From a virus, in IMG/VR virus record IMGVR_UViG_3300013119_000686, positions 1-61,627 of that record: a DNA stretch of 61,627 nt; one strand, given 5' to 3'. The position numbers and the translations under genes are program-made. The notes beneath the pieces are model-generated. The model was not told where the DNA came from and made no database searches. It was given only the letters and a program-made list of their open reading frames with translations. Positions 5,276-52,554 of the stretch are shown piece after piece (the first letter of the stretch is position 1; each line of letters begins with the position of its first letter).

Positions 5276-8200
5276 ATGCCACCACTTCCAGGACCATTTG
5301 GAAACATGAACATACACCAGCAGAGCTCGTCAACTACTACGTCTACGACTAGCACATCTACAACGCAGACAAACACAGAAATACTTAACGGCCCCCTGGG
5401 CAATCAGTCAGCATCTTCTTCTACATCGCAGACTTCATCTACGTCTACATCACAGACTAACTCAAACATCTTTAATCTTTCGCAACAGTTGCAACAGGAC
5501 AATCAGTCAGAATCTACAGGCGGCGGCTTTTCTGGAATAGGGGCCACTGTGCACGCCGCCATGACTGAAGGCGGTGGAAATATAATAACAGAAGAATTGT
5601 CTACAGGAGGAATAGGGGCCACTGTGCACGCCGCCATGACTGAAGGCGGTGGAAATATAGAGTTTTCTGCAATGACGCAAGGGGCAGGAGCATCTCTTTT
5701 AAACAATGCAGGCACTGGTTTGCTTTTAAGCGGTCCATCCGTCGGAGCTTCAATAGCTGAAGGTCCCGGTGCGATAACTGAGCAGCCACAGCAGTCTAAT
5801 GCAGGTGCAGAGGGAACCTACTCTGGCATAGGAAATATATTTAGTGCCCTTGGCGGTGCAACTATTGGTTCTAATGTTCCTCAAAATATACAGACGGTAT
5901 CTCACGAGACTGCTCCCGGTGGTGACACAGAGGTGACAACAGATCCACCAAGGCAGGGATTTTTACCAACTGCAGGAATTAGCTATAGCACGCCTGTCAT
6001 CCTAGGGTCGTTTGAATTCATGCCGCCGTGGAAGACGGCACACAGATATGAAGGAAGTCATCTCTCCTCAGCAGGAAAGCTAATAGATCTTCAAAATATC
6101 CTAAAGCAGGCAAGAAATAACTCAATTAATGAAATTTTTCATAATTTTTTTGGAGTTTGGCCAAGCTCCACGGGCGGCGAACCTCTGAGGGTGACCGCAG
6201 CAGCGCCACAAGATGTTCAAAATTCTGTATTTGACGAGGCTAACAGGCTACCTTCTGTTAGAGATACGACAAGTGAGGAGTTAAATCAATATCTCGAAAT
6301 TTTTTTGGCACTTGAGGAAATATCTCTATCATTAAACGTAAAGAGAAATTCTAACAAATATAGACAGATCTCTAATAGCACTGATCTTGTTAGTCATTTT
6401 GATAGATACGATGGATTTGGCGTTAGCATTGCTCAAAACACTAAGGCTCTTTATTCCTTTTTTCTTGAAACACTTAAATATTCACATGATTTTTGGAGCA
6501 CATCTACAAAGACTGTTCTTGTTATGCAGCTATTTGCTGATCTTAGGGCTAGCATTTTACATTCTAGTCTTAATCTGTGGAATGACACAAGAACGATGCC
6601 TTCTCATGCAACAACAGTCGCAGGCTATGGTGGAACAAAGTCAAAAGTTAGATATGAGGCCCACAAAAGTTTAGGCAAGATAGAGTTTAGTGGATGGGAT
6701 CCCGCAGTAAGTACATCACTGAGTCTAAGTAGTCAGTATTTTACCCAGGCTGATGCAAATAGCGTATTCAACACGCCTTCAACAGTGACATGGATAAACA
6801 AGGCCTCAGCAAATCTCCACTATGCAACCCGTGATTACTATCTCAGACTTGCGCTCAGTCACGGAACTGTTAGAAGTAAGTCTGCACAGCTTGGTCATCT
6901 AATTAGCCCAGGTAGTGCAGGAAGAGTTTCTTCACTAGTGGCAGCTCAAAAGATGTCTGACGTCTTTGACACGATCTTTGGTCCGATAGGCGGCCCCGAA
7001 AGCTCACAGATCCTAAACGCTGACCGAAACTCATCAAGTATCTTTACCGCTATATCACCAAATGTAGATGTAGCGACACCTGACCCGCCTGGAATTACAA
7101 GACAAATGCCGCTTCTCTCACACGATCGTCAGTCACTTATGCCAGGCGTGTCTCAGAGATTTATGGGTGGAAAAGACTGGTTTGTTGATTCTCAGCTCAC
7201 ATCAGATGACGGTGAAAGGTTAAGTCCTGCTAGATTTACAGGCTATGTTGATGATATATCAGATAAGATTGACACGTTGCAAGAGATGATTCTTCCAGTC
7301 ATAACTGCCGGTCACATTGCAAATACAACATTTTTTAAAAAGATCATCCAGAGGTTGAAATACTTTATTGAAGATAAGGGTGAGTTAACAGTAGATAGAG
7401 GGCAAGGATTGACTGAGTCTAAACTATATCAGATAGGCTCCTTATGGATGTTCATGCTTGCAAATGATAACACTTACCTATTTCAGTTAATTTTAAAAAT
7501 GATAATGTATAGAAAGGAGTATCAGCAGTATAGCAGTAGCAATAGACCCGCTACACTAGTAAGCAAATATAATCAAGCAAAGCAGGATCTTGCAGAGAGT
7601 ATCTGGTCGCACTACAGTGATCGAGAAGTAAACTATGATAATAAGATGATAATGACTACGACTGATGCAAAGAGGGTCGGAAGAACATATTTGTCAAGAG
7701 GTCTTGTTTCAATACTTGCTGCTCCAGGTGAACGTGATAACCTTTATGTTTTAGATGCTGATGCTCCTTCTGGACAGCGTAGTCTTGAGGGAATGATCGG
7801 AACGGGCACATCGTCGTTTAAAATTTGGGACATGCCACTAGAGGCAGCAAGAAAATTTCAGATAGAGGCAGAACAGGATGCTAATGTTAATTTAGGAAGT
7901 TCTGATGACCCTGGAACTCAAAAATCAGATTCAAAAAACTTCAATACAGTTACAGGTGATCTTGGCGTCGGATATTACGGAAGAGTGGCAGTTGCAATGA
8001 AGGTTATGATGGAGATGCTATGTGATAGCTTGTTTGTAAACTTTTCATCATCTACCGCAGATGTTAATGCAAGTGTAGGTAATGATGGTGGCGGAGGCCA
8101 AGGACATCAGGCATATACATATCAAGCTGCGTCATTTGGATATAATTTTTTGAATGCAATTGCATTTTCTGAGGCTCTGGATGCCTGGTCAGATGCAGGA

Positions 8201-9754
8201 AAAACCGGTGATTACAGTAGTCAGTTGAAAGATAGCTTAAGAAACAGGCTAGACGGTGAACAGCTAAGGGTTGAGCCAACAAGCTTCAGCTCAGACATGG
8301 CTAGTCTAAGAGATGATCAAGTTCAAGAAGCGATATCTGATGCATTAAGAGTTTTTTCTAATATGTCTGACATTAAGATAAATCTTTTTAATGAGGATGT
8401 GCATATATTTAACATTCTTCACTATCTGCAAAAAATAAAGGACGTGCTAAATACGACATCGACATCAGTTCAGAATAGCTTAAATCATAGCAGTGGTCCC
8501 TACGCAAATACTTTGACTAATTTGAATACTGAAAGCGGCAGGTTTTTATGTCAAAACCTAACAAGAGATCAGCTGTCTTTAAGCGGAGCGCTATATCATT
8601 CTCTTCTTAGTCCGTCTCGTGAGTATCCCGCATTTCCTGCCGGCAAGACGATTCACTCTAAGCAGGTTCTAAACATGCTATCCTGGATGACACAAGACGT
8701 TTTCAGCCCAGATGCAATTCAAGTTGGCGGACGACCAAGAATAATGACTGTAGGTCTTCCGGCCGGATTATTAGAGTATCTTAGGGATGCATCAGAAAGT
8801 CAGACAGGTGACTCGTACTACGGTGATGCGACAACTATTAAGATAGTTGTTCACAGGCAAAATCTCGTTAGTGATAGTGAGAATCCAGGGCCTCTTGTAT
8901 ATTATTTTGACACAGCTAATCACATAGTAGAGGGAATCGAAGGACAGGATGACATGATAAGTCTCGCACCTAGTGATCCCTCACCCTATGGTACAGCAAG
9001 CATGCTAAATGATGCAAATATCAGGTCATTTCACATCTTAAACAAGCATGACGAAGTTGAAACAAAGGTATTGACACCCAATCCTGTTGACTTAGGTAAG
9101 TACGGTACATCAACTAATCTTAAAGATCATATAAGAAACAATCACTTGTCAGATCACTATCTAAAAATTTATCTTAAGACAGTGATGGGAATAGACATCT
9201 ATGAGGATGTATTTCAACATGATACCGCTAGCACATTACGATCTGGACCAGACTCTGTGTCTCTTGGAACATCAGTTGCTAAGGAAGCCATTGTTGCTAA
9301 TACATCACAGACATACGAGAAGGCAATGACGAGTGCGCTTCAAAATCTTAGTCAGTTTACGGTAAAGACGACAGAGGAGGCAATTGAATTTAGCAGATTG
9401 TCAAGTGAGATAGCAAGATCTTTACCCTTTAGCAAGCAAAAATATGCAAATAGGGTCCTCCAGGCTAAAAAATTTGATAGAGTTTTTTGCCTTCTTGTTC
9501 ACGAACAGAACCCTTCGTTTATGTCTGGAGATGCTAACGACCAGACGCCGACAGGTGTACCTGTGATGATGGCCGAAGGTGCAATAAGACCTATCACAAA
9601 TCAATCTAACACATCAGGTGACACAAGTAGCAGTTCTAATTTTGGAAATACGGGAAGTGATTCAAGTGAGATGTGGGGTGTTGATGATCCAAGCTATTAT
9701 AACTTCTTTGTAACAGTAGAGCTTGCACAAAAGCCTTTAAGCCTTCATAGGTGA
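5276..9754 (+). CDS. Giant virion structural protein with Ser/Thr/Gln-rich head
   Basis: 1492 residues and the longest uninterrupted structural gene here. Residues 1 to about 80 are a low-complexity Ser/Thr/Gln/Asn stretch, probably a flexible linker. Next comes a 25-residue near-repeat (GIGATVHAAMTEGGGNI twice) encoded by a perfect 51-base direct repeat. The remaining roughly 1300 residues look globular and partly helical and are not recognised. There is no signal peptide or membrane segment. Its position between two fibronectin-like structural genes argues for a baseplate, fibre or tail component. No enzymatic motif was found. Confidence 0.7.
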   Translation: MPPLPGPFGNMNIHQQSSSTTTSTTSTSTTQTNTEILNGPLGNQSASSSTSQTSSTSTSQTNSNIFNLSQQLQQDNQSESTGGGFSGIGATVHAAMTEGGGNIITEELSTGGIGATVHAAMTEGGGNIEFSAMTQGAGASLLNNAGTGLLLSGPSVGASIAEGPGAITEQPQQSNAGAEGTYSGIGNIFSALGGATIGSNVPQNIQTVSHETAPGGDTEVTTDPPRQGFLPTAGISYSTPVILGSFEFMPPWKTAHRYEGSHLSSAGKLIDLQNILKQARNNSINEIFHNFFGVWPSSTGGEPLRVTAAAPQDVQNSVFDEANRLPSVRDTTSEELNQYLEIFLALEEISLSLNVKRNSNKYRQISNSTDLVSHFDRYDGFGVSIAQNTKALYSFFLETLKYSHDFWSTSTKTVLVMQLFADLRASILHSSLNLWNDTRTMPSHATTVAGYGGTKSKVRYEAHKSLGKIEFSGWDPAVSTSLSLSSQYFTQADANSVFNTPSTVTWINKASANLHYATRDYYLRLALSHGTVRSKSAQLGHLISPGSAGRVSSLVAAQKMSDVFDTIFGPIGGPESSQILNADRNSSSIFTAISPNVDVATPDPPGITRQMPLLSHDRQSLMPGVSQRFMGGKDWFVDSQLTSDDGERLSPARFTGYVDDISDKIDTLQEMILPVITAGHIANTTFFKKIIQRLKYFIEDKGELTVDRGQGLTESKLYQIGSLWMFMLANDNTYLFQLILKMIMYRKEYQQYSSSNRPATLVSKYNQAKQDLAESIWSHYSDREVNYDNKMIMTTTDAKRVGRTYLSRGLVSILAAPGERDNLYVLDADAPSGQRSLEGMIGTGTSSFKIWDMPLEAARKFQIEAEQDANVNLGSSDDPGTQKSDSKNFNTVTGDLGVGYYGRVAVAMKVMMEMLCDSLFVNFSSSTADVNASVGNDGGGGQGHQAYTYQAASFGYNFLNAIAFSEALDAWSDAGKTGDYSSQLKDSLRNRLDGEQLRVEPTSFSSDMASLRDDQVQEAISDALRVFSNMSDIKINLFNEDVHIFNILHYLQKIKDVLNTTSTSVQNSLNHSSGPYANTLTNLNTESGRFLCQNLTRDQLSLSGALYHSLLSPSREYPAFPAGKTIHSKQVLNMLSWMTQDVFSPDAIQVGGRPRIMTVGLPAGLLEYLRDASESQTGDSYYGDATTIKIVVHRQNLVSDSENPGPLVYYFDTANHIVEGIEGQDDMISLAPSDPSPYGTASMLNDANIRSFHILNKHDEVETKVLTPNPVDLGKYGTSTNLKDHIRNNHLSDHYLKIYLKTVMGIDIYEDVFQHDTASTLRSGPDSVSLGTSVAKEAIVANTSQTYEKAMTSALQNLSQFTVKTTEEAIEFSRLSSEIARSLPFSKQKYANRVLQAKKFDRVFCLLVHEQNPSFMSGDANDQTPTGVPVMMAEGAIRPITNQSNTSGDTSSSSNFGNTGSDSSEMWGVDDPSYYNFFVTVELAQKPLSLHR
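5534..5659 (+). repeat. 51-bp perfect direct repeat, two copies, period 75
   Basis: Positions 5534-5584 and 5609-5659 are identical (beginning GGAATAGGGGCCACTG and ending GGTGGAAATATA). The 75-base period is 25 codons, so the reading frame is kept and the protein repeats GIGATVHAAMTEGGGNI. Identity at synonymous positions suggests a recent duplication or continuing recombination. Confidence 0.95.
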
Positions 9755-34703: not shown

Positions 34704-36635
34704 ATGGCAAAATCATTTACACTAGAACAGTTGACAGAAGGCATCAGGCAGAGAAATGTCGGTGCTGAAGGTCAACGACTGATTGAAAAGTGGTCTAGAA
34801 CAGGTCTTCTTCGTGGTCTCGCTGATCACAATAGAGAGATCATGTCTCGACTTCTTGAGAATCAGGCTGCACAGCTGTTAAGAGAGCAAAACTCTCTGTC
34901 AACAGGCGCAGCAAACATGACAACATCTGGCGATCTTCGTGGTTTCACAAACATCGCCTTCCCGATCGTCCGCAGGGTCTTCGGTGGTCTCGTATCTAAT
35001 GAGTTGGTATCAATTCAGCCTATGAGCCTTCCCTCTGGTCTGCTCTTCTATCTGGATTACACATATGGAACCCGCATCGGCGGTGATTCAAATCTCCAGA
35101 CAGGTGCCGCAGGTGCAGCAAATGCGCAGACATACGGTAAGGGTCAGTCGATCTACAACAACCCCACAGGCAAGGGTGTCCAAAGCGGATCTTTGGCTGT
35201 CGGTGGTCAGTATGATCTAGTTGGAACATCGTATACCAAGGTTCACAGCTCATCTATTGTTCAGACATCAAACGTCTTGGCATCAGGTGCCTTCCAGGGT
35301 AACTCAACGTTACAAGATGGTCGCGTCTGTGCATCAACGGGTACTGACGGTCGACTTCTACAGTTCGATCCACAGCTAACAAACCTCATTGACGATGACA
35401 CAGCACAGAACACAACTGGTGAGTTCCAGTTCGTGATTCTTGATCTAGCCTCCTCAGTGTTCAACTCTATGGATACAACACAGGCTAAGGATGTCTCACT
35501 GTTCACAGATGCTGACCTCGGTTCAGATCAAGGCGGAGGCGGAAACGGTCTTTCAGCCGTACCTGAGTCAGTTCAGGGTGGCAAGAACCTTGTTAACGTC
35601 AGACGTCTGAACCAGGTGGGAACATATGCTAACGGTCAGTTCACGTCAGATCCTCTCATTGGAAGAACGTCTGCAAATGCCGCTCTTCTTGTTGTTGTTA
35701 CAGGATCTCACAAGGCCCATCCGGCTGGTGTTGCTAACCTAACTGCATCATACGCATTGGCTGCGTCACTTGACATCGATACATCTGACGGCTCTGCTCT
35801 CACGATTCCATCGTTTGAGTCTGATTTCGCGTCATCGCCCTCCCCGGCGATCCCTGAGATCGACATCAAGATCGAGTCAATCGCTGTAACAGCTCAGACA
35901 CGCAAGCTACGTGCTCGCTGGTCACCAGAGCTCGCACAGGATCTTAACGCCTACCACAGCATGGATGCTGAGGTCGAGCTAACACAGATCCTCTCTGAGC
36001 AGGTAGCTCTTGAGATCGACCGTGAGATCCTAAACGATCTCCTGGTCGAGGCAGCAGGTGCTAACTACTACTGGTCACGCATGCCAGGTAAGTTCGTTAA
36101 CAAGACAAACGGTACAGAGGCTACTCTTTCTAGCACTCTAGCTTCCGGTCCTAGCTTCACAGGTACGGTCCGTGAGTGGTATGAGACGCTAGTTGAGACG
36201 ATCATCGATGTCGCTAATGAGATTCACCGTAAGACTCTTCGCGGTTCTGCAAACTTCATCGTTTGCTCACCTGAGGTGTCAACGGTATTCGAGGCATCAG
36301 TTCTTTACAAGCCTAACTACAGTCTTGACGGCGACGGTCAGGTTGGTAATCCGTTCACACTCGGTGCAGCTCCGGTCGGTACGCTGAGCAACCGTTTCAC
36401 GGTCTATAAGGACCCCTACTTCCCACGCAACAAGGTTCTTGTTGGTTATAAGGGCGGTAGCTACCTTGAGACAGGATACGTTTACGCTCCGTACGTACCA
36501 TTAATTGTCACACCGACGATCTTTGCTCCAGAGGATTTCACGCCTCGCAAGGGAGTGATGACTCGATACGGCAAAAAGATGGTTCGTGCTGACTTCTACG
36601 GCACTGTGACGGTGCTTGATCTCAATGTGATCTAG
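34704..36635 (+). CDS. Major capsid protein (T4 gp23-like)
   Basis: 643 residues with an HK97-fold T4-type capsid pattern. A helical N-terminal region comes before NIAFPIVRRVFGGLVSNELVSIQPM, and later come RARWSPELAQDLNAYHSMDAE and FTPRKGVMTRYGKKMVRADF. The N-terminal 61 residues are charged and helical, ending AAQLLRE before QNSLSTG. An L-x-E site at residue 61 sits at nearly the same place as the T4 gp23 cleavage (residue 65), so processing there is likely. Codon use is richer in C-ending codons than in its neighbours, as expected of a highly expressed gene. AAGGA precedes the ATG and a strong terminator follows. Confidence 0.95.
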   Translation: MAKSFTLEQLTEGIRQRNVGAEGQRLIEKWSRTGLLRGLADHNREIMSRLLENQAAQLLREQNSLSTGAANMTTSGDLRGFTNIAFPIVRRVFGGLVSNELVSIQPMSLPSGLLFYLDYTYGTRIGGDSNLQTGAAGAANAQTYGKGQSIYNNPTGKGVQSGSLAVGGQYDLVGTSYTKVHSSSIVQTSNVLASGAFQGNSTLQDGRVCASTGTDGRLLQFDPQLTNLIDDDTAQNTTGEFQFVILDLASSVFNSMDTTQAKDVSLFTDADLGSDQGGGGNGLSAVPESVQGGKNLVNVRRLNQVGTYANGQFTSDPLIGRTSANAALLVVVTGSHKAHPAGVANLTASYALAASLDIDTSDGSALTIPSFESDFASSPSPAIPEIDIKIESIAVTAQTRKLRARWSPELAQDLNAYHSMDAEVELTQILSEQVALEIDREILNDLLVEAAGANYYWSRMPGKFVNKTNGTEATLSSTLASGPSFTGTVREWYETLVETIIDVANEIHRKTLRGSANFIVCSPEVSTVFEASVLYKPNYSLDGDGQVGNPFTLGAAPVGTLSNRFTVYKDPYFPRNKVLVGYKGGSYLETGYVYAPYVPLIVTPTIFAPEDFTPRKGVMTRYGKKMVRADFYGTVTVLDLNVI

Positions 36636-36657
36636 AAAAAGTTCATCTAATGAACGG

Positions 36658-36686
36658 GGAGGGAGCTTTTGCTCCCTCCTTTTTTA
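36658..36686 (+). terminator. Intrinsic terminator after major capsid gene
   Basis: A nine-pair stem (GGAGGGAGC, loop TTTT, GCTCCCTCC) is followed by TTTTTTATTTT, 23 bases after the capsid stop. It separates the head transcripts from the accessory region. Confidence 0.9.
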
Positions 36687-36696
36687 TTTTAAGTAG

Positions 36697-36725
36697 TTTA
36701 CAAAAATCTATTCATACTATATTAT
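36697..36725 (+). promoter_or_regulatory. Sigma70-type promoter for the gene at 36744
   Basis: TTTACA (36697-36702) and TATTAT (36720-36725) are separated by exactly 17 bases, each differing from consensus at one position. It lies just downstream of the capsid terminator and 18 bases before the next ATG, so the downstream gene has its own host-type promoter. Confidence 0.6.
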
Positions 36726-36743
36726 TACTATGTAGAGGTAAAT

Positions 36744-37298
36744 ATGGTAGAAAAAGTAAAGTGTGAATACTGCGATAAACTGCTAAGCAATACAAAAAGA
36801 TCAATAGGGTCGCATATCGGTTATTGGCATAAGGATATTGCAGAAAAGCTATATGACAAGAGTGTTGAGTTTAAATTGTCTTGTAATATCTGCAATAAAC
36901 GAGTTGCAAATACAAACAATGTTCTCGCAAGACACGTAAGAAAAGAACATCAGGTAGAGTTTGTAGACTATATTGTTAAGTTTAATCACGATGGCAAATG
37001 GCCCGTGTGCAAGTGTGGCTGCGGAGAGAAAGTAAGATATAACAAAGGAGGTTTCGCGAAATACGTTTCAGGCCACTCATCAATAGGTAAAAATAACGGC
37101 ATGTATGGCAAAAAAGGAATTAATTCTCCAAACTATGGAAAGGTTAGAACTGCCACACATAGAGAAAACTATAGCCGAGCTGCAAAAAAGAGATGGAAGG
37201 ATAACTATGATGAGAGATGTGCCACACTTAGAACACCAGAATATAGAGAAAAGCAAAGAATCGCGGGCATTAAAACATCGCAGAGACAAGATGTATAA
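36744..37298 (+). CDS. Truncated homing-endonuclease-like protein (zinc fingers, NUMOD3-like)
   Basis: 184 residues. There are two C2H2-like fingers (CEYC with HIGYWH; CNIC with HVRKEH), a CKCGCGEKVRYNKGGF-x-GH element, and then NUMOD3-like motifs (KNNGMYGKKG, SPNYGK) with a basic helix. The same order of a C2H2 finger, a CGCEE-to-GH element and DNA-binding repeats opens the antisense endonuclease at 50781-52436. Here the protein stops before any nuclease domain. It is probably a homing-endonuclease remnant or a stand-alone DNA-binding protein. GAGG precedes the ATG, and the gene has its own promoter and lies just upstream of a large RNA. Confidence 0.65.
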   Translation: MVEKVKCEYCDKLLSNTKRSIGSHIGYWHKDIAEKLYDKSVEFKLSCNICNKRVANTNNVLARHVRKEHQVEFVDYIVKFNHDGKWPVCKCGCGEKVRYNKGGFAKYVSGHSSIGKNNGMYGKKGINSPNYGKVRTATHRENYSRAAKKRWKDNYDERCATLRTPEYREKQRIAGIKTSQRQDV

Positions 37299-37300
37299 TT

Positions 37301-37329
37301 TTGTACAACAGAAGTAGAAGGTATATACT
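37301..37329 (+). promoter_or_regulatory. Candidate promoter for large structured RNA
   Basis: TTGTAC (37301-37306), 17 bases, then TATACT (37324-37329). The -10 is good and the -35 is weak. It begins just after the stop of the preceding gene and would start transcription near 37336, where the structured region begins. A hairpin (TAGAAG/CTTCTA, 37315-37333) overlaps it. Confidence 0.45.
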
Positions 37330-37335
37330 TCTATA

Positions 37336-38034
37336 GTTCTTTGAAAATTTATGTGACCCATGTTCTCGGGTCCAAAAATCCAGGTGGAGTTACTGGCTCC
37401 TGGATCTAATATCTTTTGGTATTAGGATAGAGAAAACTCCGATGGAGAAGGTGACGTTCTTACGTCATGCCGCTTCACTAAGAGGAGGGACGAGTTAAGG
37501 AAGGTGGAACTTTCGAAGTCGTTCAGTGGCCTAAGGTATGAGTCCCTATTCCGCTAGGGAAGTGCTACCGAGGGTATCCATGGACTTGTAGGTTCATCGT
37601 GGAAACGGGACAAGGGCAATCCAAGAAGCCGAAAGGCTATGATGTCTTGGGAAGAAGGGTTAACTCTCTTCAGAATCTAACTGTCGGTGACAGAAGTCTC
37701 TCTGGTGGAATTGGCAACAAGACCACCGTCCCGAAAGGGGTCCTGTGGATATGCTCCCAAGGTTTGGAAGCAGGGCGCGCGATCACGAGGTGAAGTGTAC
37801 AGCTCACTCAAGAGAACGCAGAATGTCATGGCGATAGTAGGGCGTGCTGTTCCGTAGGTATTACAGCCTAAGAACAGGGAGAAAGCTCGTGAACGGCTTT
37901 ACAGGTCGGTGTGTGCACCTCTAACCAAAAGGGACAGCTTCGAATTCAAGCGGAGTTGAGGGTCACGAGAATGAAAAGCGAGGTATGCTGCGCTTTTCCC
38001 CCATCTAGGGCCGGTCTTTCGACCGGCCCTTTTT
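37336..38034 (+). ncRNA. Large structured non-coding RNA, about 700 nt, class not identified
   Basis: This 775-base stretch has no credible gene but many strong hairpins in order: 37378-37405 (ATCCAGG/CCTGGAT), 37406-37425, 37451-37468 (UCUU loop), 37543-37560 (TCCCTA/TAGGGA), 37621-37650 with inner AGCC-GAAA-GGCT, 37681-37693, 37704-37727 (GGTGG/CCACC), 37730-37739 (GAAA loop), 37847-37877 (CTGTTC/GAACAG around TAGG/CCTA), 37882-37900 and 37973-37998 (GAAAAGCG/CGCTTTTC), and then a terminator. GNRA loops and higher GC than the neighbours point to a folded RNA. Large ornate phage RNAs such as GOLLD and ROOL are of similar size, but I cannot confirm membership. Hallmarks of RNase P, tmRNA and group I/II introns were not seen. 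The 5' end is inferred from the promoter candidate. Confidence 0.85.
38008..38034 (+). terminator. Intrinsic terminator of the large RNA
   Basis: A perfect nine-pair stem (GGGCCGGTC, loop TTTC, GACCGGCCC) followed by TTTTTATAT. It is the strongest terminator in the window. Confidence 0.95.
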
Positions 38035-38073
38035 ATATCTTAGTGAAATAGTTATAAAATAAAAGGTAAAATT

Positions 38074-38301
38074 TTGTTTAAACATTTAAAAGATACGGAC
38101 ATGACATATCTAGGACACTTCTACAGATCTTTTGGATTTGCTGTGTGGTCAGCAATGATGCTTTTTGTTAGCGTGATTCACGCAATAGTTCCATTTCTGT
38201 TTACAGAAACATTTTCTACTAATGTTATAAGGCTAGCAGACAGGCTTGAAGAAGAAAAAATAAACTTTTTTAATAAAAAATTGAATGAAAGGCAGCCCTA
38301 A
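38074..38301 (+). CDS. Small membrane protein, DUF6356-like
   Basis: 75 residues from a TTG start 6 bases after AAAGG. The pattern HLKDTDMTYLGHFYRSFGFA, followed by one or two hydrophobic helices (WSAMMLFVSVIHAIVPFLFT) and a short charged tail, resembles the bacterial DUF6356 family, whose function is unknown. It lies directly after the RNA terminator. It is probably an accessory protein in the host membrane; the family match is by memory of the pattern only. Confidence 0.6.
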   Translation: MFKHLKDTDMTYLGHFYRSFGFAVWSAMMLFVSVIHAIVPFLFTETFSTNVIRLADRLEEEKINFFNKKLNERQP

Positions 38302-38341
38302 AGCTTATAATATATGTAAGCATCATATATAGGAGTTTAAC

Positions 38342-38665
38342 ATGAAGTTTATGCTATTAGCTGCCCTTAGTTTTTTTGGAACTAGCTGTTCAGCACACGC
38401 TCACACATCAGCTAGAAGTGGAGTTTCAGTCAGCGTTCAATCCGGGTGGATCTGGGTTCCTGGTTACTGGTCATATCTAAAATACGGTGTAGGAAAAAAC
38501 ACTATCGTTAGAAAATATAGATGGAACGGGGGCTATTGGAATCACAAGTCACTTGGTAAATCATATAGAACACATAAGCAGGGTCCGCCAGCTAATCGAC
38601 ATTATCACAGACAGGGACACAACCACCACAGGCAGGGACATAGTCATCACAGACACACACGATAA
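38342..38665 (+). CDS. Secreted WxxGxW, His-rich protein
   Basis: 107 residues with AGGAG before the ATG. Residues 1-20 look like a signal peptide (MKFMLLAALSFFGTSCSAHA, cut after AHA). Two WxxGxW-type repeats follow (IWVPGYWSY and YRWNGGYWN), and the C-terminus is His/Arg-rich (HRQGHNHHRQGHSHHRH), made of short repeats and likely metal binding. WxxGxW repeat proteins are usually exported bacterial envelope proteins, so this may be an acquired host-like gene. Its function in the phage is unknown. Confidence 0.65.
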   Translation: MKFMLLAALSFFGTSCSAHAHTSARSGVSVSVQSGWIWVPGYWSYLKYGVGKNTIVRKYRWNGGYWNHKSLGKSYRTHKQGPPANRHYHRQGHNHHRQGHSHHRHTR

Positions 38666-50700: not shown

Positions 50701-50784
50701 GGAAAAATATACGTTCAACCTACAAGAACAGCAGAGTTTGTTGCACTTGATTTCATGGTGTCGAATGCTGGTGCAGAAGTTTAA
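47734..50784 (+). CDS. Tail sheath protein 2 (T4 gp18-like paralogue)
   Basis: 1016 residues, with the same architecture as the gene before it: IFRSAGVSTREIDVSSRK, AGVVGTAEDGPAFVPVTV and YIRVLGVG at the start; HPWFAPAGFTRGSL, INPITTFPGTGLVVWGQKTL and LDRVNVRRLLIEIRR at the end. The middle domains differ substantially. Both copies look intact and both have GGAG-type ribosome sites. The 3' end overlaps the antisense endonuclease gene by 4 bases. Two sheath types may be mixed or used at different positions in the tail. Confidence 0.92.
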   Translation: MAEIVFRSAGVSTREIDVSSRKTSTGPIGIPAGVVGTAEDGPAFVPVTVASYKDFASVFGNTDGERFGPLAVNEWLKAAQALTYIRVLGVGDGKKKNSTTGKVTNAGFVVGQKLPQTNGNVGVNTYAVPNGDLGRTHFFGCYMSESAGSTVFSDAGLSHWAMSASSAEYELNGDGCIPILRGILMAASGVIPLLSASTEHATGSNSKPSNTSPAIAGNHGASLQGCITGAVNLSNQEFVLLLNGHKDTDSYPNTLTCSFDLRSSNYFADVLNTDPFKIEESGHYLYSSYDIHPSLAVITGAGYVYPGSGTQLGGTGGPTLEPVAFITTGSHGRNAGTAGTPDYESFETRFSTAKSPYVISQDFGGTKYDLFRVHATDDGAGVSTRFKISIENIQKSTSDTSFFGSFDLIVRDFYDSDDEKVVLEQYRGLSLNPSSDRFIARVIGDQRTFYDFDRNDGSQRLVVEGDHPVQSNLIRIEQSKILKDGAVPDEALPLGSRGHHHLVTSGSQPLHGVGTATQGQLWAGSTDLLHHIVEPPTPLRESVSVGVYPNDRAKSYLYWGVQFTRKESITEPNKIGLHDNTLDSFAKYFPTFRDDVRNVSVGDNAGAADSNGTVLDADRFNNNMFTLERVKVRTGSNGLADPRQWVSASYARQGGITANETTKTRAFKVDDLKNSGNRNFAKFTFFLQGGFDGVNIFNKSKSDLLNNSCMWEMDDSSNQGATDGPTVAAYRKAVDIMETKSDVDIKLLAIPGIRHSSVTDYAVDAVEDRFDALYIMDIEERDNTDQIVTGSLQNVNVGYTVAAFKNRALDTSFAAAYFPDTIVRDPTTLTNVQVPPSVSVLGAFAKNDRIGHPWFAPAGFTRGSLSAERSALPLKRANLDELYDADINPITTFPGTGLVVWGQKTLLSSQSSLDRVNVRRLLIEIRRSVRAVANSLLFEPNRSETLDRFNALVTPILQGIQEKSGVDRYKVVIDTSTTTQADIENNTLRGKIYVQPTRTAEFVALDFMVSNAGAEV

Positions 50785-52436
50785 ATATCAACTTCTAGTA
50801 TAATATTTGGACAGCCCCATATTTTAACAACACCAACTTCTTCTGATACCTCTTTTTCAGACATGTTTCTTGTTGGATCTGCTTTTATTTTAAACCTATT
50901 GATTCGTGTCTTACCGTCAGTCCACCAAAATCGATTAATTGTCTTTTGACGTATTAAAAATCCAGACTTTAAATATGATTCACCAAGACCATGTCTTAGG
51001 TCCACATACGTCATAATTTTTTGATATCTGTCTTTTTTGGCCCTAGCCTTTACATGCTTTATCAGCTTGCTTAGGCCGCCCTGAATAACAACGTCTATTT
51101 TATTTGCAAATCTAGCAATTTCTATGTATCCTTTATATTTTTTATGAAAGGGTTTTCTAACAGATATGCATGCAACAATCTCTTTATTATAAACAAGCCC
51201 TAGCGCCCAGCTTGATTTTGTGTCACCGTCTATGTGATTTTCATTAAAAAACTTTTTTCTATCGCTATAGGCAACATCTATAATTTTGCATTTTCTTGCA
51301 GGAATCTTTATCTTCGTCATTCCTAACCTGTGACGTATCATTGATTTAACAATGCTTCTTTTTTCTTCCCACTCATCTTCAAAGACATGTATTAGCTTGA
51401 TGTTCTGCTCGAGTGATAATTCTGACTTTCTCTTATGATAGTTTTTATCCTTAAACTCTTCACTGTGGAAATAAAGACCGTTATACTCTATTCCTAATCT
51501 ACACTCTTTGACAAGAATGTCTATCTCATATGGTCTTATTGTCGATCTGTCACACATAATAGTTTCTTTGCCTAAACTCCTTATAAAGTCATTTATTTCT
51601 ATCTGATGCTTTGACCCGTGTGGATCACAGTCTTCACATCTATTGCTCATAGCCTGAATCAGGCTCTTAGTTTGTTGTTTGTGGCAGTTTCGACATTCAA
51701 ATATAAGATTTTTTATTTTATCGCGCTTATAGCTGTCAATTTTAGATATTAACTTTAGCTTGGGTGCATTAATGTTTAGTCTTTTAATAACTTCATCTTC
51801 TGAAAGCCTTTTTTTAGAATCTAGCACATCTCTTATCTTTTTGTTATTTAGTGTTTCTGCAACATTAAGGGACATTTCTAGCACTCTGTTATCTGTTTCT
51901 TTTGTAAGGCCTTTTGCCCATGGGATCAATTCACCTGATCTATACTTGTCGCTTAATTTTTTTGATAATTTTAAAAGACGATCATCTGTTTCTTTTGTAA
52001 GACCTTTTGACCATGATGCTATTTCACCTCTTTTGCTTTTTGCCTGTAGCGTTGATTTTATCTTTTTAGATCTTCTTAAGATTCTATCGTCTGTTTCTTT
52101 TGTAAGTCCTTTTGACCATCCTTCCTTTCCCTTTAGCGATAAAGACCGTTTATTTGAAATCTCTTTTGCTCGCTTTTCATCGTAGATTGAGTATATTGAT
52201 CCATTGTGACCTAGCTTAAACTTAGATGAGTATCCTACATTCCAGCTTTCAAATTTTAACTCTTCTTCACAGCCACAAGCACAAGTTAAATTTTTTGATG
52301 TTTTTAATATAACTTTATTATATGCATCTTGAGTTGACAAAAAATTGTGGAAGTCTACAACATGAGTATTAAAGTCATTTTTTCTTCCACACGTAAATGA
52401 GCATATGGGACATTTATATCTTTTTGACGTTTTCAT
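50781..52436 (-). CDS. Free-standing homing endonuclease, Vsr-like (EDxHD) family
   Basis: 551 residues on the minus strand. The ATG at 52436 puts the C2H2 finger (YKCPICSFTCGRKNDF-x-H) at the N-terminus; a GTG at 52484 is an alternative. A CACGCEEEL-to-GH element follows, then three tandem W-S/A-KGLTKETD-D/N-R-x-L repeats (DNA spacing 105 and 93 bases), then a CxxC-CxxC ribbon. From about residue 270 comes the nuclease (HQIEINDFI, YEIDILV, LGIEYNGLYFHSEEF, LIHVFEDEW), as in the Vsr-related homing endonuclease family typified by I-Bth0305I. It is the only antisense gene in the window and sits between sheath and tube genes. Confidence 0.85.
   Translation of the reverse strand: MKTSKRYKCPICSFTCGRKNDFNTHVVDFHNFLSTQDAYNKVILKTSKNLTCACGCEEELKFESWNVGYSSKFKLGHNGSIYSIYDEKRAKEISNKRSLSLKGKEGWSKGLTKETDDRILRRSKKIKSTLQAKSKRGEIASWSKGLTKETDDRLLKLSKKLSDKYRSGELIPWAKGLTKETDNRVLEMSLNVAETLNNKKIRDVLDSKKRLSEDEVIKRLNINAPKLKLISKIDSYKRDKIKNLIFECRNCHKQQTKSLIQAMSNRCEDCDPHGSKHQIEINDFIRSLGKETIMCDRSTIRPYEIDILVKECRLGIEYNGLYFHSEEFKDKNYHKRKSELSLEQNIKLIHVFEDEWEEKRSIVKSMIRHRLGMTKIKIPARKCKIIDVAYSDRKKFFNENHIDGDTKSSWALGLVYNKEIVACISVRKPFHKKYKGYIEIARFANKIDVVIQGGLSKLIKHVKARAKKDRYQKIMTYVDLRHGLGESYLKSGFLIRQKTINRFWWTDGKTRINRFKIKADPTRNMSEKEVSEEVGVVKIWGCPNIILEVDI
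51892..52121 (-). repeat. Three related repeats in the homing endonuclease gene
   Basis: The plus-strand signature TCTGTTTCTTTTGTAAG recurs at about 51892, 51985 and 52090, each followed by CCTTTTG-x-CCAT. It encodes KGLTKETD repeats with a period of 31-35 residues, each followed by a basic helix, so probably a modular DNA-binding array like other NUMOD-type repeats. Confidence 0.85.
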
Positions 52437-52554
52437 TCTTAGAACCCAGCTAAACCTTAAATTACCTCTTAAACTATATATCACTTCTTTAAAAGAATAA
52501 ACTTAGTGCGAACATATTTAGTAAGTAAGCAGCAGCTTTATAAAGGAGAATATT

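Follow-up and report, generated by a model that had tools for sequence, protein, structure and literature searches.

A conserved, elaborately folded non-coding RNA of large phages, very likely a new class, begins with a boxA-like motif

Just a few very large structured RNAs are known from bacteria or phages, and no function is known for those of phages. The closest described systems are GOLLD (RF02032) and ROOL (RF03087), phage RNAs that are often found near tRNA islands and that form RNA-only cages; some of their pairings, first seen as covariation, are between copies (PMC12286853). GOLLD also binds ribosomes in pull-downs (PMC12286853). The GOLLD cage is a 14-mer and the ROOL cage an 8-mer. 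Large non-coding transcripts of other large lytic phages are the ~800-nt abundant RNA of ICP1 (PMC7567579) and the lncRNAs of phage K (PMC9241854). The 11-nt boxA consensus GYTCTTTAANA opens the long untranslated transcripts of rRNA and CRISPR arrays (PMC5725501, PMC7862264). On rRNA, boxA recruits NusB/S10 and suppresses Rho-dependent termination, and CRISPR arrays use it too (PMC7862264).

The window analysed here is the full 61,627-nt stretch of the IMG/VR record IMGVR_UViG_3300013119_000686, and the RNA coordinates refer to it. Comparing homologous sequences, without transcript data, we find that 37336-38037 very likely encodes a non-coding RNA that is conserved and elaborately folded. The gene is flanked by an upstream ORF ending at 37298 and by a DUF6356 gene from 38101, and no ORF of ≥80 aa was found between 37361 and 38342. 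Stop codons occur in all six frames of all six homologous sequences, and the substitutions among them are spread evenly across the three codon phases. Therefore, a protein is not the explanation, and a protein-coding frame was ruled out. The G+C content of the RNA region is 46-53%, compared with 31-39% in the flanks. The minimum free energy of the window RNA was below that of dinucleotide shuffles (z = -4.0 with 20 shuffles; z = -5.3 with 25). Because four other members of the RNA family gave z values of -1.9 to -4.2, while four coding controls ranged from -0.1 to -2.7 with one at -2.7, we treat folding energy as only moderate evidence.

Other IMG/VR phage contigs yielded five distinct homologues with 73-93% nucleotide identity, and the genomic setting differs in four of them. 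Over the aligned parts, the identity to the window RNA is 93% for L295 (37-kb contig), 83% for L506 (69 kb), 76% for L375 (204 kb), 75% for L505 (293 kb), and 73% for L331 (185 kb). Each record holds a single copy, and the contig 3300009378_000005 carries an identical one. L295, L331, and L375 came from an IMG/VR pattern scan with a provisional motif, guessed to be a loop E. Covariation places some letters of that motif in long-range helices, and the three are true homologues despite the wrong structural guess. Using a second conserved block as the pattern, we obtained L505 and L506. Three exact 15-mer patterns returned only a near-identical contig plus chance matches, and a 17-mer core gave only chance matches in genome contigs. 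A 16-mer match in L500 was rejected as a homologue, being a chance match inside a repressor gene. With blastn, the RNA had no match among 50,697 phage records or among 72,556 plasmids; when four homologues were used as queries against the phages, any matches were short and either terminator-like or due to chance. The model R1, built from the core domain, matched nothing in 369 genomes of the class of genome G053 and nothing in 395 genomes of the phylum of genome G054, under strict filters and with no genome in either set known to match. In all, the RNA was found in six large-phage lineages; for four of these, the gp23 capsids were shown to fall into a single clade.

We regard covariation as the decisive evidence for a conserved RNA structure, which is very likely on this basis. 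RNAalifold on the six-sequence alignment gave 175 pairs, 64 with double-sided changes. From the covarying helices of the same alignment, we assembled a structure of 173 pairs in 32 helices. In this structure, 98.7% of the cells are paired, and 67 pairs changed on both sides with pairing kept (124 such cells). Shuffles averaged 89.7% paired, 35.1 double-changed pairs, and 45.0 cells, and none of 500 was as high in each. When the partners were slid by 1-3 columns, only 39-45% of cells were paired, with 6-13 double-changed pairs. Helices with at least three double changes numbered 18, against 0-2 in a column-permutation null. Two limits apply: the alignment used for choosing the structure is also the one on which it was scored, and the six sequences are few and related.

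Three pseudoknots (crossing pairings), one of them a kissing loop, show compensatory variation and are 100% paired in all six sequences. The kissing pair, GUGGAA/UUCCGC in the window, becomes GUGGUA/UACCAC in L331, L375, and L505; in the same three homologues, the 3′ pseudoknot changes from the GUGUGC/GUAUGC of the window to GUGCUU/AAGUGC. A pairing of the loop GUUCUC (37362-37367) with GAGAAC (37812-37817) was rejected, as it is not conserved among the homologues. The features are collected in Table 1.

Table 1. Predicted features of the RNA gene, in window coordinates
Feature	Coordinates	Strand	Evidence
-35-like hexamer TTGTAC	37301..37306	+	sequence; similar -35/-10 pairs upstream in homologues
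-10-like hexamer TATACT, 17-nt spacer	37324..37329	+	sequence
Non-coding RNA, ~700 nt	37336..38037	+	conserved block in six sequences, covariation, no protein signal, no Rfam family
boxA-like element GTTCTTTGAAA	37336..37346	+	10/11 match to GYTCTTTAANA (consensus PMC5725501)
Helix 37379-37384/37399-37404	37379..37404	+	double-sided changes in 6/6 pairs
Stem 37437-37440/37484-37487, 37443-37447/37473-37477, inner hairpin	37437..37487	+	covariation, helices 4-7
Hairpin, loop GUGGAA (37504-37509) in kissing pair	37488..37524	+	covariation, helices 8-10
Hairpin, loop UUCCGC (37549-37554) kissing 37504-37509	37529..37575	+	covariation, helices 10-13
Hairpin, loop 37589-37595 pairing with 37673-37679 (pseudoknot)	37577..37603	+	two double-sided changes, 100% paired, helices 14, 15
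Length-variable linker-like region	37618..37672	+	indels between homologues
Core domain, most conserved, closed by 37680-37692/37824-37838	37680..37838	+	covariation; basis of model R1
Hairpin with covarying upper stem 37855-37859/37866-37870	37847..37877	+	covariation, helix 26
3′ domain closed by CUCGUGA/UCACGAG, inner hairpins	37886..37969	+	covariation, helices 27, 28, 30, 31
Pseudoknot 37911-37916/37983-37988	37911..37988	+	three double-sided pairs, 100% paired, helix 29
Intrinsic terminator, perfect 10-bp stem 38007-38016/38021-38030 + T run	38007..38035	+	sequence

Most of what the original prediction had claimed for the locus itself held: a large structured RNA of ~700 nt (supported by covariation and the lack of a protein signal), its borders at 37336-38034 (the same as the conserved block), a gene-free stretch, and a G+C content above that of the neighbours. 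The candidate promoter TTGTAC-17-TATACT was confirmed in sequence at 37301-37329, and the perfect terminator, described as having nine pairs, proved to be a perfect 10-pair stem with a T run. The claim of at least eleven strong stems held in part, as some single-sequence stems fail; the hairpin predicted at 37406-37425, for example, falls in a length-variable region and does not survive comparison. Of the outcomes named as refuting the prediction, a conserved protein frame was looked for and not found in the six homologous sequences, and an absence of covariation across homologues is contradicted by the 67 double-changed pairs out of 173.

Promoter-like hexamers with 16-17-nt spacing stand ahead of the RNA, or of a tRNA-RNA unit, in all six loci. 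Singly they are weak evidence, their scores being reached by 1-13% of random windows. In L375, the only scoring site lies ahead of the tRNA; there, a TTGACT-17-TATATT site precedes tRNA-Lys, and the RNA follows ~6 nt after that gene. Intrinsic terminators were found in four of the six (window, L295, L506, and L331), and no obvious terminator was seen after the RNA in L375 and L505. We predict from these signals that transcription likely starts at a sigma70-type promoter, which serves the RNA alone or, in L375, a unit headed by tRNA-Lys, and that it stops at an intrinsic terminator in those four loci.

The first conserved letters of the RNA form a boxA-like island, and the letters on either side have diverged. 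L505 and L506 match the boxA consensus at 11/11 positions, the window, L295, and L331 at 10/11, and L375 at 9/11. The sequence criterion for a boxA leader, GYTCTTTAANA near a transcript start, is fulfilled, with the reservation that the start is predicted and not measured. Alternatively, the letters 37338-37343 may pair with 37611-37616, which has one covarying pair in its favour. New in this analysis is the observation that this RNA opens with a boxA-like antitermination motif of the rRNA type. The motif is the same as in the leaders of rRNA and CRISPR arrays; here a phage RNA starts with it, and its function is inferred. Whether it works in antitermination could go either way in our judgement; NusB/S10 binding and Rho blocking are inferred from sequence alone.

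Scanning the whole window with cmscan at the Rfam thresholds (Rfam 15), we obtained no family match, including GOLLD, ROOL, OLE, and the introns. A permissive scan of 36600-38400 (E ≤ 5) gave poor matches only, several of them on the terminator. The homologue loci matched tRNA and tmRNA families in their flanks and nothing credible within the RNA, and the OLE covariance model found no match in the window or the homologues. As a positive control on the same set-up, the GOLLD model recovered a GOLLD member (E = 4.5e-40); the profile of our RNA family did not match that member. Our RNA resembles GOLLD in being a large non-coding RNA of phages or prophages with tRNA genes often near, many helices, pseudoknots, and a less conserved part. 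Unlike GOLLD members, it has no covariance-model match even at E ≤ 5 and no profile similarity, and its family carries the boxA-like 5′ motif, which is absent from the one GOLLD locus examined. With ROOL it shares size (ROOL is ~520-660 nt), a phage setting near tRNA islands, kissing loops, and a variable linker, but again there is no covariance-model match, in this case without a ROOL positive control. The RNA region of Vibrio phage ICP1 (L532 20090-21115, minus strand) matches neither the profile of our RNA family nor the model R1, and the phage K lncRNAs were compared only through the blastn against the phage collection. The ICP1 region has itself no Rfam family above the cut-off and is possibly another unclassified large phage RNA.

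We found no earlier description in the open-access literature searched; preprints and subscription journals were mostly uncovered, so a prior report is possible. With this reservation, the RNA is very likely a new class, absent from Rfam and comparable in kind to GOLLD and ROOL. The likeness to these two suggested by the original prediction held for size, pseudoknots, and tRNA setting, whereas membership in either fails by covariance model. The possibility of a new class, which it had raised together with an Rfam scan as the check, is supported by the finding of no family.

In L331, L375, L505, and L506 (four of the six), tRNA genes flank the RNA on both sides within a few kb, and these records match the GOLLD description of a phage or prophage gene near tRNA genes. 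The tRNAs are clustered at the RNA, the majority of them in three whole records and half in the record G822. No tRNA was found in the 76-kb relative of the window or in the 37-kb contig of L295, and the tRNA setting is not universal. The gp23 capsids of three carriers share 69% (G820), 49% (G821), and 67% (G822) amino acid identity with that of the window, and the RNAs of the same phages have 73-76% nucleotide identity; in all three, the RNA lies tens of kilobases from the capsid genes. Capsid relatives of the window phage have other genes and no RNA at the corresponding place. A capsid-linked function was rejected, as RNA-capsid synteny is absent both there and in these three carriers. Because the adjacency is known only from the window's lineage, the capsid neighbourhood is not part of the biology of the RNA. 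The RNA thus belongs to large T4-like phages and usually lies in their tRNA region, and a place beside the capsid gene is known only in the window's lineage.

The ORF upstream of the RNA (36744-37298, + strand, 184 aa) has NUMOD3-like repeats and a weak zinc-finger match and is apparently truncated; the RNA starts right behind it. In further phages of the same clade, L072 and L077 among them, homologues of this ORF follow immediately after the capsid gene, and the L072 relative extends over at least 219 residues. The window and L295 are alike from about the -35 site onward, and the genes upstream differ. The truncation and this onset of similarity therefore indicate an apparent recombination joint, and the endonuclease-like remnant likely marks that joint and is not a partner of the RNA. 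Thus, two claims about the neighbourhood fared worse than those about the RNA: its place between capsid and tail genes, thought meaningful, is peculiar to the window's phage, and the relevance of the homing-endonuclease remnant is weakened.

Several other genes were noticed at these loci. Three of the six phages encode a small secreted His-rich protein close to the RNA (window 38342-38665, +; L506 5236-5535, -; L295 3174-3476, +); it is a recurrent protein neighbour, and the window and L506 versions match at BLASTP E = 7e-7. The DUF6356 protein is encoded immediately 3′ of the RNA (38101-38301, +). L506 has a full-length Hsp70/DnaK gene (7030-8919, -) beside its tRNA array, with an FKBP-type isomerase nearby, and the 204-kb contig of L375 has a tmRNA gene (346-766, +) with the tag ANNNYYFEESRLAA. 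The record G822 carries a tandem pair of gp23-type capsid genes (C1:176269-180147), each 67% identical to that of the window. On the opposite strand of the window, a 567-aa ORF (50781-52484, -) gave very weak MTES_1575 nuclease and HNH matches.

As a structured regulator or decoy, the RNA might target the translation or transcription apparatus of the host, for instance by titrating Nus factors, S10, or ribosomes, and form no assembly of its own. The boxA-like 5′ end, the position in tRNA arrays, and the ribosome pull-down by GOLLD (PMC12286853) speak for this. However, a decoy would not need a 700-nt fold that is conserved from end to end and of which the boxA-like motif makes up only a little, so we consider a decoy unlikely. 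A cis-acting element, serving as leader, processing signal, or packaging signal of neighbouring genes or of a tRNA operon, would suit L375, where the RNA closely follows tRNA-Lys, and L505, where it ends near an FKBP gene, both without a terminator. This is very unlikely, as the neighbours vary among the compared loci and four of the six copies have their own terminator.

That the RNA is a far-diverged GOLLD or ROOL is suggested by size, pseudoknots, the tRNA-cluster setting, and the variable linker-like region. We hold this also to be very improbable: no covariance model matched at E ≤ 5 although the GOLLD control worked, and the family profile did not match the control GOLLD; for ROOL there was no such control. 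The truncated ORF adjoining the RNA, and the homologous ORFs that follow the capsid gene in related phages, prompted a further reading, in which the RNA is a mobile ribozyme (such as a group I or II intron) tied to the NUMOD3-like endonuclease gene. This is extremely unlikely, on evidence that is indirect as to splicing. No group I or II covariance model matched, no split exon is visible, and the gene after the RNA encodes DUF6356 and not an endonuclease C-terminus; moreover, the endonuclease-like ORF was not seen beside the other five copies, and the RNA has its own promoter-like site and terminator.

The best explanation overall is that the RNA is a stable structural RNA, perhaps oligomeric, to which we give a probability of roughly 0.65; this function is inferred and not shown. 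It is our best guess because size, setting, crossing loop contacts, and the variable stretch 37618-37672 are shared with GOLLD and ROOL. In the mechanism that we propose, the boxA-like 5′ motif would recruit the host NusB/S10 antitermination complex, which would let RNA polymerase reach the end of a long transcript that is not translated, unhindered by Rho, as happens on rRNA. The RNA would fold co-transcriptionally, accumulate, and act as a structural scaffold, probably via loop-loop contacts, maybe between copies as in GOLLD and ROOL. This role would belong to the part of the phage programme that deals with tRNAs and translation. The oligomer or scaffold step is an analogy with GOLLD and ROOL without oligomer data, and we put it slightly short of an even chance. 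The kissing loops could also lie within one molecule.

A bolder reading, which we hold to be less likely than not, is that the RNA is a third class of phage RNA-only cage or scaffold, unrelated in sequence to GOLLD and ROOL, tied to tRNA arrays, and made by rRNA-like boxA antitermination. If true, large RNA assemblies would have evolved convergently for a shared need of tRNA-carrying phages. For the structural RNA that we favour, the covarying loop-loop contacts are direct predictions for cryo-EM, and the boxA-like start suggests a means by which phages may make such RNAs full-length. A further, unrelated class of the same size and in the same tRNA-array setting hints at a common job.
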